Source of the DNA: a virus
IMG/VR virus record: IMGVR_UViG_3300047202_000066
Coordinates: 1-49,205 of that record
DNA length: 49,205 nt
Strand: one strand, 5' to 3'
Every line of letters starts with the position of its first letter. Positions within the stretch are counted from its first letter, which is position 1. The notes under the pieces were generated by a model. That model ran no database searches. It was not told the origin of the DNA and saw nothing but the letters and a program-made list of their open reading frames with translations. Positions 3,211 to 49,205 of this stretch are shown piece after piece. The position numbers and the translations under genes are program-made.

Positions 3211-3660
3211 TCATTCATCTGTTCTTTTAATTTTTATCAGACCTCTTATATCGTTTTGGTGTTTATATTCATTTGCTTCATATTTGACTGTCTGCAAATT
3301 TTCACAATGAAAGTAAACTTCATATATTTTAATTGATGAAATAAATGTAACTAAATAATGTTTTGTTATTGATGGAAATTCATTAATAGATATTTTTATA
3401 AATTCATAAAATTCTAAATATTTTTCTTTGGTATCCAGTAAAATACCATTTTTTGTTTTATACATCATACTTTTTTTATCATATCTTGTAAGTCTATGTA
3501 TCTTATAATGTTCATCTGGTGTTAACATTATCACATCAGTCCAATGTTCTGGTTTATAACTCCAATGATGCTTAATACAACCACGTTTGGGTATTATATT
3601 TAATGTAGCTTTATGTGCATCATATTTTTCAGGTGCTGTAAATTTTTCAGTTTGTCTCAT
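3211..3660 (-). CDS. HNH-like phage protein with accessory tail module
   Basis: 149 residues. Residues about 25-60 carry PKRGCIKHHWSY, then D-V-I-L-T and a later H-YKIH, the C..HH...H arrangement of degenerate HNH-type nucleases common in phages. Residues about 105-149 are a module also found as the separate 51-residue protein at 1387-1542. The ATG at 3660 is 18 bases after the U-rich end of structured leader L1 (3678-3788), the same position seen for the HNH gene at 43884. A homing or DNA-nicking role is inferred. Confidence 0.6.
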   Translation of the reverse strand: MRQTEKFTAPEKYDAHKATLNIIPKRGCIKHHWSYKPEHWTDVIMLTPDEHYKIHRLTRYDKKSMMYKTKNGILLDTKEKYLEFYEFIKISINEFPSITKHYLVTFISSIKIYEVYFHCENLQTVKYEANEYKHQNDIRGLIKIKRTDE

Positions 3661-3677
3661 AAATATTGAATTAAAAA

Positions 3678-3788
3678 ATCAGGATGGCTTAGTTCAACAA
3701 ATGAAGTTGAAGTCTGGGCGTTACCGCTTGCAGCATCCTGATTAATTCTTATAATTTTTTGAGTGTTTCATCTATTAAACTAAGCCGA
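3678..3788 (-). ncRNA. Structured leader RNA L1 (GNRA hairpin, long-range helix, terminator)
   Basis: Order on the RNA: strand a (3786-3767), 24-nt spacer, P1 5' strand (3742-3734), P2 hairpin (3733-3714) with GCG-GUAA-CGC tip and CUG/CAG base, strand a' (3705-3686), P1 3' strand (3686-3678), then UUUUUU. Strands a and a' can form 20 contiguous pairs, three of them G-U. a' can instead fold locally (UUCAAC/GUUGAA). P1 plus U6 looks like an intrinsic terminator. The same layout recurs at 44194-44302 and 43749-43857. Confidence 0.75.
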
Positions 3789-3790
3789 AA

Positions 3791-3798
3791 CAAAGGTA
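3791..3798 (-). promoter_or_regulatory. Promoter -7 box for leader L1
   Basis: Minus strand TACCTTTG fits the Bacteroidota TAnnTTTG -7 element, followed by TTTCGG. Transcription would start at about 3786, exactly at strand a of leader L1. The -33 box is weak. The TTACCTTTGTTTCG core is shared with the promoter of leader L3. Confidence 0.65.
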
Positions 3799-5123: not shown

Positions 5124-5130
5124 ATCGATG

Positions 5131-6204: not shown

Positions 6205-6236
6205 CAAAAGTAATTTATAAAAACAGTAAAAGCAAG
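6205..6236 (-). promoter_or_regulatory. Promoter CTTG-N20-TACTTTTG
   Basis: On the minus strand a -7 box TACTTTTG (6212-6205) lies 20 bases after CTTG (6236-6233), close to the Bacteroidota consensus. The spacer ctttTACTGTTTTTATaaat closely resembles the spacer of the leader L2 promoter at 44306-44336. Transcription would enter the 68- and 122-residue genes through the hairpin at 6136. Confidence 0.6.
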
Positions 6237-6274
6237 AGAAATCTTCATCTAACCGTAATTTAGAACGATTCTAA

Positions 6275-42476: not shown

Positions 42477-42998
42477 TCATTGACGGTTATTATAATCTTT
42501 CTTTTTTAAATCGCCCCAAAAATCCCTTAATAGTTTTCCTTCGCTTGTCCGCTTAAATGTATCTTTTGGCTTTTCTGCTTCAGTCTGTTCTTCGCAAATG
42601 TCACACCTCGAATTAAAGTGAATATCAAACCAGCTGTAAATCTTTTGTCCGTTCAAGGTTTCATACAACTGTCCGTAGTGCCCCTTTTCGGCTTCACTGA
42701 AAATAAATTCAATGTCTTTCACCGTCAAATACCAGAAATCCTCCAGTATCATTCCGGCTGTCTTGGTGATGTTTTCAGCACTCATTGGCCGTGCCACGCT
42801 CACAAATTCATTGATCTGCAATATTTTTATTTGCAAATAGTCAATTATACGTTGTTCACCCTGTTCTTTTTTTATAACAGATAATTGTTGACCAGGATTT
42901 TTAAGGATTTCCTGTATTGACTTTGCTAAGATTGTTTCTATTTCTGATTTCCTGTCTAAGAGCGGAATAATCAGGCTTCCCTTTTTGTCCTTTTCCAT
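42477..42998 (-). CDS. Hypothetical replication-associated protein, 173 aa
   Basis: MEKDKKGSLIIPLLDRKSEI, then EKWYL-type helices FWYLTVKDIEFIFSEAEKGH and YSWFDIHFNSRCDICEEQ. Occurs after the DUF4373 initiator in Bacteroidota phages and may load a host helicase. It overlaps the DUF4373 gene by 98 bases in another frame, an unusually long overlap; no later ATG before residue 73. Confidence 0.55.
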   Translation of the reverse strand: MEKDKKGSLIIPLLDRKSEIETILAKSIQEILKNPGQQLSVIKKEQGEQRIIDYLQIKILQINEFVSVARPMSAENITKTAGMILEDFWYLTVKDIEFIFSEAEKGHYGQLYETLNGQKIYSWFDIHFNSRCDICEEQTEAEKPKDTFKRTSEGKLLRDFWGDLKKKDYNNRQ

Positions 42999-43728
42999 CT
43001 TTGATAGTTTTTATGATATTGACTAAATTGTATTTTATTCCTGTGATTTTTAAATTTTTCTTCGAAAAGTCATCCCATTTATCGTAATGACTTAATACGT
43101 ATTTCCACATATTTAATGCCTCAGTATCGACATTTTCCGGCGTGGCATTTTTATCTCTTGCAATTTTTTGGAAATAGGCAATAATAGATTTTAATATTTT
43201 TCCATCGGCCGGCGTTATATCGGCCGGTACAGTTGTTTGCTCTAAAATAAAATTATTATAGGCTTCCATGAACGGAGTGAATAGTAATATATTATTTACT
43301 TTAATTTTCTTTTCTTTTATTTCCTTTACTTTATTTTCCTTTACTTTAATAGCATTGCCATCGCTATCCGTTTGCAATGCGTTCGCTTTACGTTCGCTTT
43401 GCCCCCATCTCTTTTTAGCTGAATTTGAGGCTTTTAAGGATTTATTTTTTCTTTGTCCTAAACGCCTTGAAACGCTCTCAGACCAAAAAAAATCATTATC
43501 AAAATTAAATAATTCAAAGCCTTCAATTACTGCCTGAATTACATTTTTATCACATCGTAATTCGAATGCAATGCGATCGTATTCCTTTCGCATTTTTCCG
43601 CCTTCTTCATAAAGCATTTCCGCTATGCACCAGAATGCTCCAATCCCCTGCATTTGGTATTTCATTTGAAGGTTAACTAATTTCCGGTCATTCCTGGCAT
43701 TATAGTCATGGCTAAAATATTCCCGCAT
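42901..43728 (-). CDS. DUF4373-domain replication protein
   Basis: 275 residues from ATG 43728 (MREYFSHDYNARNDRKLVNL), chosen because an earlier ATG at 43842 lies inside the structured leader L3. N-terminal YQMQGIGAFWCIAEMLYEEG is the Lin1244/DUF4373 winged-helix domain of phage replication initiators; the middle is charged (KENKVKEIKEKKIKV) and the C-terminal part resembles DnaD-like helicase-loader ends. Gene regulated by promoter 43863-43894 and leader L3. Confidence 0.75.
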   Translation of the reverse strand: MREYFSHDYNARNDRKLVNLQMKYQMQGIGAFWCIAEMLYEEGGKMRKEYDRIAFELRCDKNVIQAVIEGFELFNFDNDFFWSESVSRRLGQRKNKSLKASNSAKKRWGQSERKANALQTDSDGNAIKVKENKVKEIKEKKIKVNNILLFTPFMEAYNNFILEQTTVPADITPADGKILKSIIAYFQKIARDKNATPENVDTEALNMWKYVLSHYDKWDDFSKKNLKITGIKYNLVNIIKTIKDGKGQKGKPDYSALRQEIRNRNNLSKVNTGNP

Positions 43729-43748
43729 TTTTGATTGAATAAAAGAAA

Positions 43749-43857
43749 ACTCAGACGGTCTAACCACACTATCATGGATAGGTAAGTTCTGGGCGTCGCC
43801 GTTACCAGCATCTGAGTTTAATATGTCCTTTTTATTTTCCAAAATAATATGATTAGA
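43749..43857 (-). ncRNA. Structured leader RNA L3
   Basis: Strand a (43857-43839), spacer 21 nt, P1 5' (43817-43811 ACUCAGA), P2 hairpin (43808-43789; CUGG...CCAG with GNRA-type GCGA or GAC tip), strand a' (43777-43759), P1 3' (43755-43749), then UUUUCUUUU. a/a' give 19 positions with four G-U and one mismatch. a' can fold alternatively as CUAUC/GAUAG. The next ATG is 20 nt after P1. Confidence 0.7.
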
Positions 43858-43862
43858 CGAAA

Positions 43863-43894
43863 CAAAGGTAATTCAAAAAAATGTTAAAAGCAAC
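43863..43894 (-). promoter_or_regulatory. Promoter GTTG-N20-TACCTTTG for DUF4373 gene
   Basis: TACCTTTG (43870-43863) with 20 bases to GTTG (43894-43891). It is embedded partly in the end of the HNH gene (43884-44177) because of a 31-bp duplication; start of RNA coincides with strand a of L3. Confidence 0.75.
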
Positions 43895-44177
43895 ATATAT
43901 CTGAAATAAATTTTTGTATCTGTTCTAAAATTGATTTTTTTAATTGTGAAAATTTTGAATGACATTCTTCGCAAAGTGTAATTAAATAAACATTATTATA
44001 ATCCCAGATTTCGTGATCTGGCAAATATATTTTATGATGGACATTCAATGTTTCATTTTTTTCACCGCACCATTGACAGGTAAAATTATCCCGTTCCATG
44101 ATTTCAAGACGTTTCTTTTGCCACTTAGGGTGCAAATATGGATTTGATGAATTTTTACGATTTGATTTTTTAGTCAT
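43884..44177 (-). CDS. HNH endonuclease
   Basis: 97 residues. CQWCG (Cys34, Cys37), VHHKIYLPD (His47-His48), NN in DYNNVYLITL, CEECH (Cys69, Cys72, His73) form the complete HNH/zinc site. Probably a free-standing homing or mobility nuclease. Its last residues (SDICCF, stop) come from the duplicated sequence 43885-43915. Preceded by leader L2 with ATG 16-18 nt after P1's U-tract. Confidence 0.85.
   Translation of the reverse strand: MTKKSNRKNSSNPYLHPKWQKKRLEIMERDNFTCQWCGEKNETLNVHHKIYLPDHEIWDYNNVYLITLCEECHSKFSQLKKSILEQIQKFISDICCF
43885..43915. repeat. 31-bp direct repeat flanking HNH gene, left copy
   Basis: taaaagcaacatatatctga continues to aaataaattttt; the right copy at 44327-44357 differs by a single base (a/t). 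Contains the -33 part of both downstream promoters. Confidence 0.85.
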
Positions 44178-44193
44178 TTTGATAAAATTAAAA

Positions 44194-44302
44194 AGTCAGG
44201 CACGTCAAACTTCACAAATGAATTTGGGGAGTTGGAGGCGTTGCCGCTACTCCGTACCTGACTAATTATTTTTTCCTTAATGTTCATTTATGAAATTTGA
44301 CG
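44194..44302 (-). ncRNA. Structured leader RNA L2
   Basis: Strand a (44302-44283), spacer 19 nt, P1 5' (44263-44257 AGUCAGG), P2 hairpin (44253-44234; GGAG...CUCC with GCG-GCAA-CGC tip), strand a' (44222-44203), P1 3' (44200-44194), then UUUUUU. a and a' pair over 20 positions, two as G-U. a' alternatively folds as UUCA-UUUG-UGAA extended by CAAA/UUUG. The HNH ATG (44177) follows. See L1. Confidence 0.75.
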
Positions 44303-44305
44303 CTA

Positions 44306-44336
44306 CGAAGATAATCATAAAAACAGTAAAAGCAAC
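44306..44336 (-). promoter_or_regulatory. Promoter GTTG-N19-TATCTTCG for the HNH gene
   Basis: TATCTTCG (44313-44306) with 19 bases to GTTG (44336-44333), near-consensus. RNA would start at strand a of leader L2. Confidence 0.6.
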
Positions 44337-44357
44337 ATTTATCTGAAATAAATTTTT
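44327..44357. repeat. 31-bp direct repeat flanking HNH gene, right copy
   Basis: One mismatch to 43885-43915. The repeats bracket the HNH ORF plus leader L2, as expected if the cassette inserted upstream of the DUF4373 promoter and duplicated it. Confidence 0.85.
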
Positions 44358-44363
44358 AGTAAA

Positions 44364-44628
44364 TTTTGCCATACCTGCCATGCCAGATCACACCTAACCG
44401 TACCGCACCCGATCCAACCAGACCTATCCGCACCTGCCTTATCTTACCCCATCATTCCGTAACTTACCGTACCGAACCTTATCTCACCATACCTGCCAAA
44501 TTAAACCGTACCTTACCTCACCCGACCGAACCAGACCCTGCCTGACCTCACCTTACCGCACCTGCCATGCCTTACCACACCTAACCAGACCGCACCCGAT
44601 CCAACCTCACCTTACCGCACCTGCTTTG
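44364..44628 (-). repeat. Pentanucleotide array (minus strand GGTNN period)
   Basis: About 265 bases with GG about every 5 bases on the minus strand (GGTAAGGTGAGGT style, 'acc' per 5-mer on plus), roughly 50 units, no open reading frame and few exact repeats beyond blocks such as accgcacccgatccaacc (twice) and ttaccgcacctgc. It fills the gap between the 146-residue gene stop and the leader L2 promoter, so it would be in the 3' region of the upstream operon's RNA. Confidence 0.9.
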
Positions 44629-46587: not shown

Positions 46588-46791
46588 TTAAATATAATAC
46601 TCTTTGTATTTTTTCACTTCGCCCAAATATGTGGATTTTGTGAAATTTGACCGTATGATATGACCTTGTTTTTTTAAGTCATAAATACGTCCTGACAACC
46701 TCAGGCATCCAAAGAATTTCAGAGCCTTTAAAGCAGTTATTTTGTTACCGGCTTTGAGGTAATTTAAAATAGCAGTGTTTTGAGTTTCCAT
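46588..46791 (-). CDS. Winged-helix/HTH small protein, 67 aa
   Basis: ILNYLKAGNKITALKALKFF then LRLSGRIYDLKKQGHIIRSN is the classical HTH pattern of small phage winged-helix proteins (helix 3 RIYDLKKQG). Likely an early transcription regulator or DNA-binding protein. Confidence 0.75.
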   Translation of the reverse strand: METQNTAILNYLKAGNKITALKALKFFGCLRLSGRIYDLKKQGHIIRSNFTKSTYLGEVKKYKEYYI

Positions 46792-48788: not shown

Positions 48789-49039
48789 AGTTTACCCTCC
48801 GTTTCCCGACATGAAATAAAAATCGGTTTCGACTGCTCTTCGTATTTCAGCATCTCAATAACCTGATCGCCATAACGCCATGTATGATCGTCGAAAGTTA
48901 CTGAACACATCAGCAGGTATTCAGTTGAAATTTCCGGTATCTCTACAGCAGTTATATCATTTCCTTTTAAGGGGTGAAAATGGATATGCAGCACTTTTTT
49001 GTTACAAATCCGATCTCCGATTTTAATTGTTGGTTTCAT
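48785..49039 (-). CDS. Hypothetical protein, 84 aa
   Basis: MKPTIKIGDRICNKKVLHIH and IPEISTEYLLMCSVTFDDHT are beta-rich. The ATG overlaps the TGA (49036-49038) of the octapeptide-repeat frame, tying both ends of the window. Function unknown. Confidence 0.65.
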   Translation of the reverse strand: MKPTIKIGDRICNKKVLHIHFHPLKGNDITAVEIPEISTEYLLMCSVTFDDHTWRYGDQVIEMLKYEEQSKPIFISCRETEGKL

Positions 49040-49205
49040 AAAATTTTACAGTTTTGTTTGTTAATGATTACTGAAGACCCTGCATCCTGAATAGTGCAAT
49101 ACCATGCATCCTGAATAGTGCAATACCATGCATTCTGAATAGTGCAAGACCGTGCATTCTGAATAGTGCAAGACCATGCATCCTGAATAGTGCAAGACCG
49201 TGCAT
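49036..49205 (-). CDS. Octapeptide-repeat protein, C-terminal part (continues from window start)
   Basis: In the frame matching the window-start segment this reads ARSCTIQ DAWSCTIQ NARSCTIQ NAWYCTIQ DAWYCTIQ DAGSS, then VIINKQNCKIL and TGA at 49038-49036, overlapping the next ATG. Direct joining of 49205 to 1 leaves one unit 23 bases long and breaks the frame, so a base was lost at the cut. Confidence 0.7.
   Translation of the reverse strand, partial: ARSCTIQDAWSCTIQNARSCTIQNAWYCTIQDAWYCTIQDAGSSVIINKQNCKIL
49087..49205. repeat. 24-bp tandem repeats at right end
   Basis: Five units starting at 49087, 49111, 49135, 49159 and 49183, the last one 23 bases. They continue the left-end array (1-168), showing that window ends meet within one tandem array of at least 12 units. 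Confidence 0.95.

Follow-up and report, generated by a model that had tools for sequence, protein, structure and literature searches.

The leaders reported here have a relative in C4, the antisense RNA by which phage P1 controls its antirepressor. The record of phage P1 annotates a promoter, the sites a1 and b1, C4, the sites a2 and b2, and the genes icd and ant. According to the passages of PMC5320573 that cite Citron and Schuster and Hartmann and colleagues, RNase P processes C4 where stem P1 begins, at its 5′ end, and the a′ and b′ loops of C4 base-pair with their targets.

The DNA analysed here (the window, 49 205 bp in full) is a phage genome with a 71-bp direct terminal repeat. It carries three structured leaders on the minus strand, upstream of genes that start at 3660 (copy 1), 44177 (copy 2) and 43728 (copy 3). 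We consider it probable (roughly 70%) that these leaders are C4-derived antisense RNAs, each fused to the start of the transcript that it controls, insulated from one another and having their own 5′ ends as the main target.

The genome and the three leaders

The three leaders share a common order: a TAnnTTYG box, strand a, a spacer, P1, a GNRA hairpin (P2), strand a′, P1′, a U-rich stretch and the start codon (Table 1). Every part of the three-copy structured leader described in a first-pass annotation of this DNA is present at its place. The tips of P2 are GUAA, GCAA and GCGA in copies 1, 2 and 3, respectively, and U-rich sequence trails P1′ in all three. Strand a begins about 5 nt past the TAnnTTYG box, which we take to be a match to the −7 box of Bacteroidota promoters. 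The same annotation had put strand a at the start of the transcript; the position of the strand holds, and the start itself is a prediction from this Bacteroidota-like box. A 149-aa protein, HNH-like by eye, follows copy 1 and gave no match in Pfam or PHROG.

Table 1. Coordinates of the leaders, their parts and the genes behind them.
Feature	Position	Strand	Basis or remark
Copy 1, whole leader	3677–3798	−	20 a:a′ pairs
Copy 1, promoter −7 box TACCTTTG	3791–3798	−	Equal box and spacing precede homologous leaders
Copy 1, strand a (a1b1-like) GGCTTAGTTTAATAGATGAA, putative transcript 5′ end	3767–3786	−	20/20 pairs with a′
Copy 1, P1 5′ strand AATCAGGAT	3735–3743	−	Domain fold
Copy 1, P2 hairpin CTGCAAGCGGTAACGCCCAG, GUAA loop, 2-nt bulge	3714–3733	−	Rfam/covariance models and fold
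Copy 1, antisense strand a′ TTCATTTGTTGAACTAAGCC; 5′ part folds into P3	3686–3705	−	Pairing, fold
Copy 1, P1 3′ strand, then U-rich stretch	3677–3685	−	Domain fold
Gene after copy 1, 149 aa, HNH-like	3211–3660	−	By eye
Copy 2, whole leader	44194–44313	−	20 a:a′ pairs
Copy 2, promoter −7 box TATCTTCG	44306–44313	−	
Copy 2, strand a CGTCAAATTTCATAAATGAA	44283–44302	−	20 pairs with a′
Copy 2, P1 5′ strand	44253–44263	−	Domain fold
Copy 2, P2 hairpin GGAGTAGCGGCAACGCCTCC	44234–44253	−	Rfam/covariance models and fold
Copy 2, antisense strand a′	44203–44222	−	Pairing with strand a
Copy 2, P1 3′ strand, then U-tract	44194–44204	−	Domain fold
Gene after copy 2, HNH endonuclease, 97 aa	43884–44177	−	PF01844
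Copy 3, whole leader	43748–43870	−	a:a′ of 16 + 3 pairs, interrupted by one T-T mismatch
Copy 3, promoter −7 box TACCTTTG	43863–43870	−	
Copy 3, strand a GTCTAATCATATTATTTTGG	43839–43858	−	19/20 pairs with a′
Copy 3, P1 5′ strand	43809–43818	−	Domain fold
Copy 3, P2 hairpin CTGGTAACGGCGACGCCCAG	43789–43808	−	Covariance model and fold
Copy 3, antisense strand a′	43758–43777	−	Pairing with strand a
Copy 3, P1 3′ strand, then U-rich stretch	43748–43757	−	Domain fold
Gene after copy 3, replication initiation protein	42901–43728	−	Lin1244_N (PF14297), phrog_2562

Several other features of the genome deserve mention. A shared segment, TTGCTTTTA, lies about 20 nt before TAnnTTYG at 6208–6244, 43873–43915 and 44315–44357, that is near 6.2 kb and at copies 3 and 2, and represents a phage promoter family. 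The promoter of copy 2 is abutted upstream by some 250 nt of non-coding DNA (44366–44627) with CC about every five bases, an ACCNN-like degenerate repeat. Tandem repeats of 24 nt span both ends (1–239 and 49026–49205), together with the exact 71-bp terminal repeat, and the genome is therefore likely to be circular or to have terminal redundancy. A G+C-rich hairpin (CCCC..GCGGGG) lies in a 43-nt unit that occurs three times (1953–1995, 2150–2192 and 2436–2478) and perhaps serves as a terminator, and a 15-nt tandem array of about 20 units (927–1373) lies inside a 240-aa minus-strand frame. The minus strand at 5128–5425 matches the tmRNA family (RF00023; 67.5 bits, E = 2.9e-24) with a clear T arm and is not recognized by ARAGORN; we read it, from its sequence, as a divergent phage-borne tmRNA.

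Family assignment and relatives

In a search of all Rfam families with permissive filters, c4-2 (RF02944, clan CL00128) outranked every other family for copy 1 (28.9 bits, E = 6e-4) and copy 2 (23.7 bits, E = 0.019); the c4-2 model alone finds them at E = 1.2e-5 and 3.7e-4. The gathering score of this family is 41 bits, which none of the three copies reaches, and copy 3 has no match with the Rfam c4-2 model. The C4 model of phage P1 (RF01695) does not match the leaders at E = 1. Intermediate sequences provide the connection: a covariance model (R1) built only from L138, L141, L158 and L199, all from outside the window, places the three copies as the top three matches in the window (32.3, 26.9 and 16.8 bits), copy 3 weakly with E = 0.24 in 186 kb, and also recovers three true c4-2 RNAs (L190, L197 and L176). 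The structural elements of c4-2 are found as well, namely the P1 stem, P2 with its 2-nt bulge and tetraloop, and the P3 hairpin. On the evidence of these models, the P1-P2-P3-P1′ domain can be assigned to divergent members of c4-2 or its close relatives.

The relatives outside the window were found by pattern. Scans for the promoter and GNRA core alone returned chance matches only. A pattern for the whole P2 hairpin, 2-nt bulge included, proved specific and gave L138 and L141 in viral contigs and L158 and L176 in genome contigs; this pattern together with a CCKGACA motif gave L190, L197 and L199. The sources of these seven leaders are metagenomic phages or assemblies of Bacteroidota. Some 30 canonical c4-2 loci were recovered as well. 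All seven have the order a-P1-P2-a′-P1′ with a TAnnTTTG box upstream, and L190, L197 and L176 score above the c4-2 cut-off (53.9, 51.9 and 50.2 bits). The first-pass annotation had proposed a new RNA family, to be given up if no further homologues appeared; homologues did appear, in a known clan and with the C4 layout of phage P1. As the core of the leaders falls in the c4-2/C4 clan, the leaders are not a new family, and we regard them as an unusual variant of a known regulator, the C4 antisense RNA.

In all seven related leaders the first bases past the promoter look like the region in which the downstream gene starts; at L190, for example, TGTCAAATTCTACTT stands at both sites. Over ten leaders the own leader/gene-start match exceeds the swapped matches (0 of 20 000 permutations), a result driven by the seven from outside the window. 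Among 395 Bacteroidota genomes surveyed, ten have c4-2 above the cut-off, with up to six matches per genome. At most canonical loci the leader nearly duplicates the gene start together with its ATG; the genomes that hold these loci are related, and the loci are only partly independent of one another. In these relatives a′ can therefore pair with both sites, giving two competing targets as in phage P1. Antirepressor genes, the same kind of gene as in phage P1, stand behind L158 and L190 only (P22_AR_N, E = 1.8e-19; ANT/KilAC, ANT E = 4.9e-20).

Most canonical c4-2 RNAs (L230–L257, Bacteroidota genomes) precede a conserved 77-aa protein, MSTNTLSKETELRL..., which occurs in several copies per genome and has no Pfam match; this multi-copy gene is probably under c4-2 control.

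Pairing, covariation and folds

In copies 1, 2 and 3, strand a forms 20, 20 and 19 pairs with a′, with scores of 42, 44 and 36. The highest score of any dinucleotide shuffle was 31, and none of 2000 shuffles per copy reached the score of that copy. At 14 of the 20 a/a′ positions both sides have changed in a compensatory manner between copies. The covariation that had been proposed at first is real, in a/a′ and in P1. It rests on three paralogues within one genome, since no sister phage with leaders of the window type was found: neither the three downstream proteins nor the terminase, used as queries, led to a relative in which the leaders are present, and a phage collection gave no match for copy 1 and only chance pieces of 34–43 nt for the region of copies 2 and 3.

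The computed three-stem domain (P1/P2/P3) is more stable than its shuffles, with z values of −3.6, −4.1 and −2.9 for copies 1–3. Folding the single strand with strand a included gives the a:a′ helix. Folding the domain without strand a gives the three-stem shape, in which the 5′ part of a′ forms P3; this is the alternative local fold that the first-pass annotation had expected of a′. Its mutually exclusive states apply to one pair of helices and not to the other: a:a′ excludes P3, so that the antisense strand has two states and could act as a two-state switch, but a:a′ and P1:P1′ draw on separate bases, in the strand order a-P1-a′-P1′, and are therefore not exclusive. The latter two helices could form together as a pseudoknot and, with a′ directly abutting P1′, could stack with the 5′ end of the RNA at the junction.

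Open frames run from the AUG or UUG of strand a through the domain; as c4-2 loci do not conserve the frame, we assign no coding role to them. In copy 2 the frame is out of frame and ends in an ATGA overlap; in copy 3 it is in frame.

The stability of both folds would also suit a leader that acts purely in cis, as first proposed, in which a:a′ versus P1/P2/P3 and the U-tract decides termination or translation and P1/P2 possibly senses a ligand or a protein. The U-rich sequence after P1′ in all three copies and the lack of a second target near the genes agree with this. However, a:a′ and P1 can coexist, the domain is related to C4, a class known as antisense RNA, and the equivalent leaders outside the window clearly carry the gene-start target; furthermore, copies 2 and 3 have no terminator-like site in a scan that allows loops of 3–8 nt only. 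We consider such a leader to be unlikely.

Targets of the antisense strand

For each antisense strand, duplex energies were calculated with the leader and gene start of its own locus and with those of 28 others. In the window, a′ binds its own leader with −22.3 to −24.7 kcal/mol, compared with swap means of −6 to −8 kcal/mol. This pairing is specific (P < 1/20 000), as it is in the canonical and non-canonical groups outside the window. Pairing of a′ with the gene start is specific in both outside groups (P < 1/20 000 each) and is not detectable for the adjacent gene starts of the three window copies (swap test, P = 0.45). In the terms of a C4-type RNA, the antisense strand is thus complementary to its own transcript start (a1b1) over 19–20 bp, the own pair exceeding all swaps, and a site corresponding to a2b2 is not detected at the three adjacent genes; these encode HNH-like, HNH and replication-initiation proteins and not an antirepressor or coupled gene. 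Strand a itself looks like a gene start, though unlike that of the adjacent gene: copies 1 and 2 have AUGAA here, and copy 3 has UUG. A trans target for each a′ was sought across the window, and none clearly exceeds shuffled controls, including the best candidate (46614–46653, inside an HTH gene). As a second target is not detectable in the window, the own 5′ end of the leader is indicated as the main target, and it is an extrapolation to describe a′ as an antisense repressor acting on the gene next to it. Each copy has its own version of a and of a′, and therefore the three circuits do not cross-react.

Another reading takes the targets out of this genome: the leaders would be C4-type RNAs acting in trans on the host or on rival phages, and a1 would be no more than a memory, or a mask, of the region in which the target starts. 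The near-copy of a gene start in a1 of the homologues and the AUGAA at the corresponding place in copies 1 and 2 are consistent with this, as are the C4-like sRNAs of Acinetobacter, which have variable a′ loops and, according to PMC5320573, are thought to act in trans. The trans search described above, which found nothing better than shuffled controls elsewhere in the window, speaks against it, and we give it the same low credence as the purely cis-acting leader. Target-site duplications of a mobile insertion might explain why leader and gene start are near-identical over 15–30 nt in the homologues, but these repeats take in the gene start in every case, enclose a′ as a third, complementary strand and do not occur in the window copies, which makes an insertion very improbable. 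A self-cleaving ribozyme of HDV-like topology, with the equal strand order P1-P2-P3-P1′-P2′ and a helix beginning at the putative 5′ end, has next to no likelihood given that a′ runs into P1′ without a joining segment for a catalytic residue, that a:a′ is a 20-bp helix and P2 a GNRA hairpin, and that no Rfam ribozyme matches even at E = 10; it was dropped, as was the mobile element.

Proposed mechanism

For antisense leaders directed at their own 5′ ends, the following course can be proposed. The promoter would start the RNA within strand a, the counterpart of the phage P1 sites a1b1. The RNA would then form the three-stem C4 domain, consisting of the closing stem P1, the GNRA hairpin P2 and the hairpin P3, with its 3′ part, a′, antisense to strand a. 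This part would pair with the first 20 nt, either in cis, where it would form a pseudoknot, or in trans once a predicted processing step, like that by RNase P in phage P1, had freed the C4 domain. The a:a′ helix would close the 5′ end with its AUG or UUG, or else the 20-bp duplex would be open to RNase III, and the expected result is lowered expression of the gene behind the leader. A further idea is more tentative and, in our estimate, somewhat doubtful: that a C4-derived module has become a set of self-contained, mutually insulated 5′-end switches in one phage, each of which has shed its separate target at the gene start, lengthened its pairing with the leader into a helix of 20 bp and taken control of a different non-antirepressor gene, the replication initiator among them.

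The analysis links a previously unexplained phage leader to the C4 antisense class. In Bacteroidota, c4-2 RNAs retain the complete arrangement known from phage P1, with a leader copy of the gene start, the antisense domain and the gene start, in some cases before an antirepressor, and this arrangement gives c4-2 a testable function. The window variant, with three orthogonal copies on replication and HNH genes of one phage, would offer a natural set of insulated antisense controllers.

Comparison with known systems

The C4-like Group 1 sRNAs of Acinetobacter baumannii resemble the window leaders in having many copies per genome and a variable antisense part; they differ in being of the Proteobacterial C4 type and in being reported as processed sRNAs, and the sections of PMC5320573 concerned with them do not tie them to HNH or replication genes. 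The C4 RNAs of phages P1 and P7 (RF01695; c4-a1b1, RF03163) share the order of promoter, a1b1, C4 domain and gene, with leader sites complementary to the antisense strands, but have a UUCG hairpin, an a′ and a b′ that are separate from each other, and a second target, annotated as a2b2, ahead of icd-ant. The likeness to c4-2 includes stem P1, a P2 of 4 bp, a 2-nt bulge, 3 bp and a tetraloop, hairpin P3, an antisense strand that ends just before P1′, a U-rich 3′ end, a promoter and complementary leader immediately upstream, and multiple copies per genome. In contrast to c4-2, the window copies score below the cut-off, have no matching site at the adjacent gene start and precede neither the small 77-aa protein nor an antirepressor, and their a′ matches the leader in one continuous helix of 19–20 bp, where that of c4-2 does so in two short pieces.
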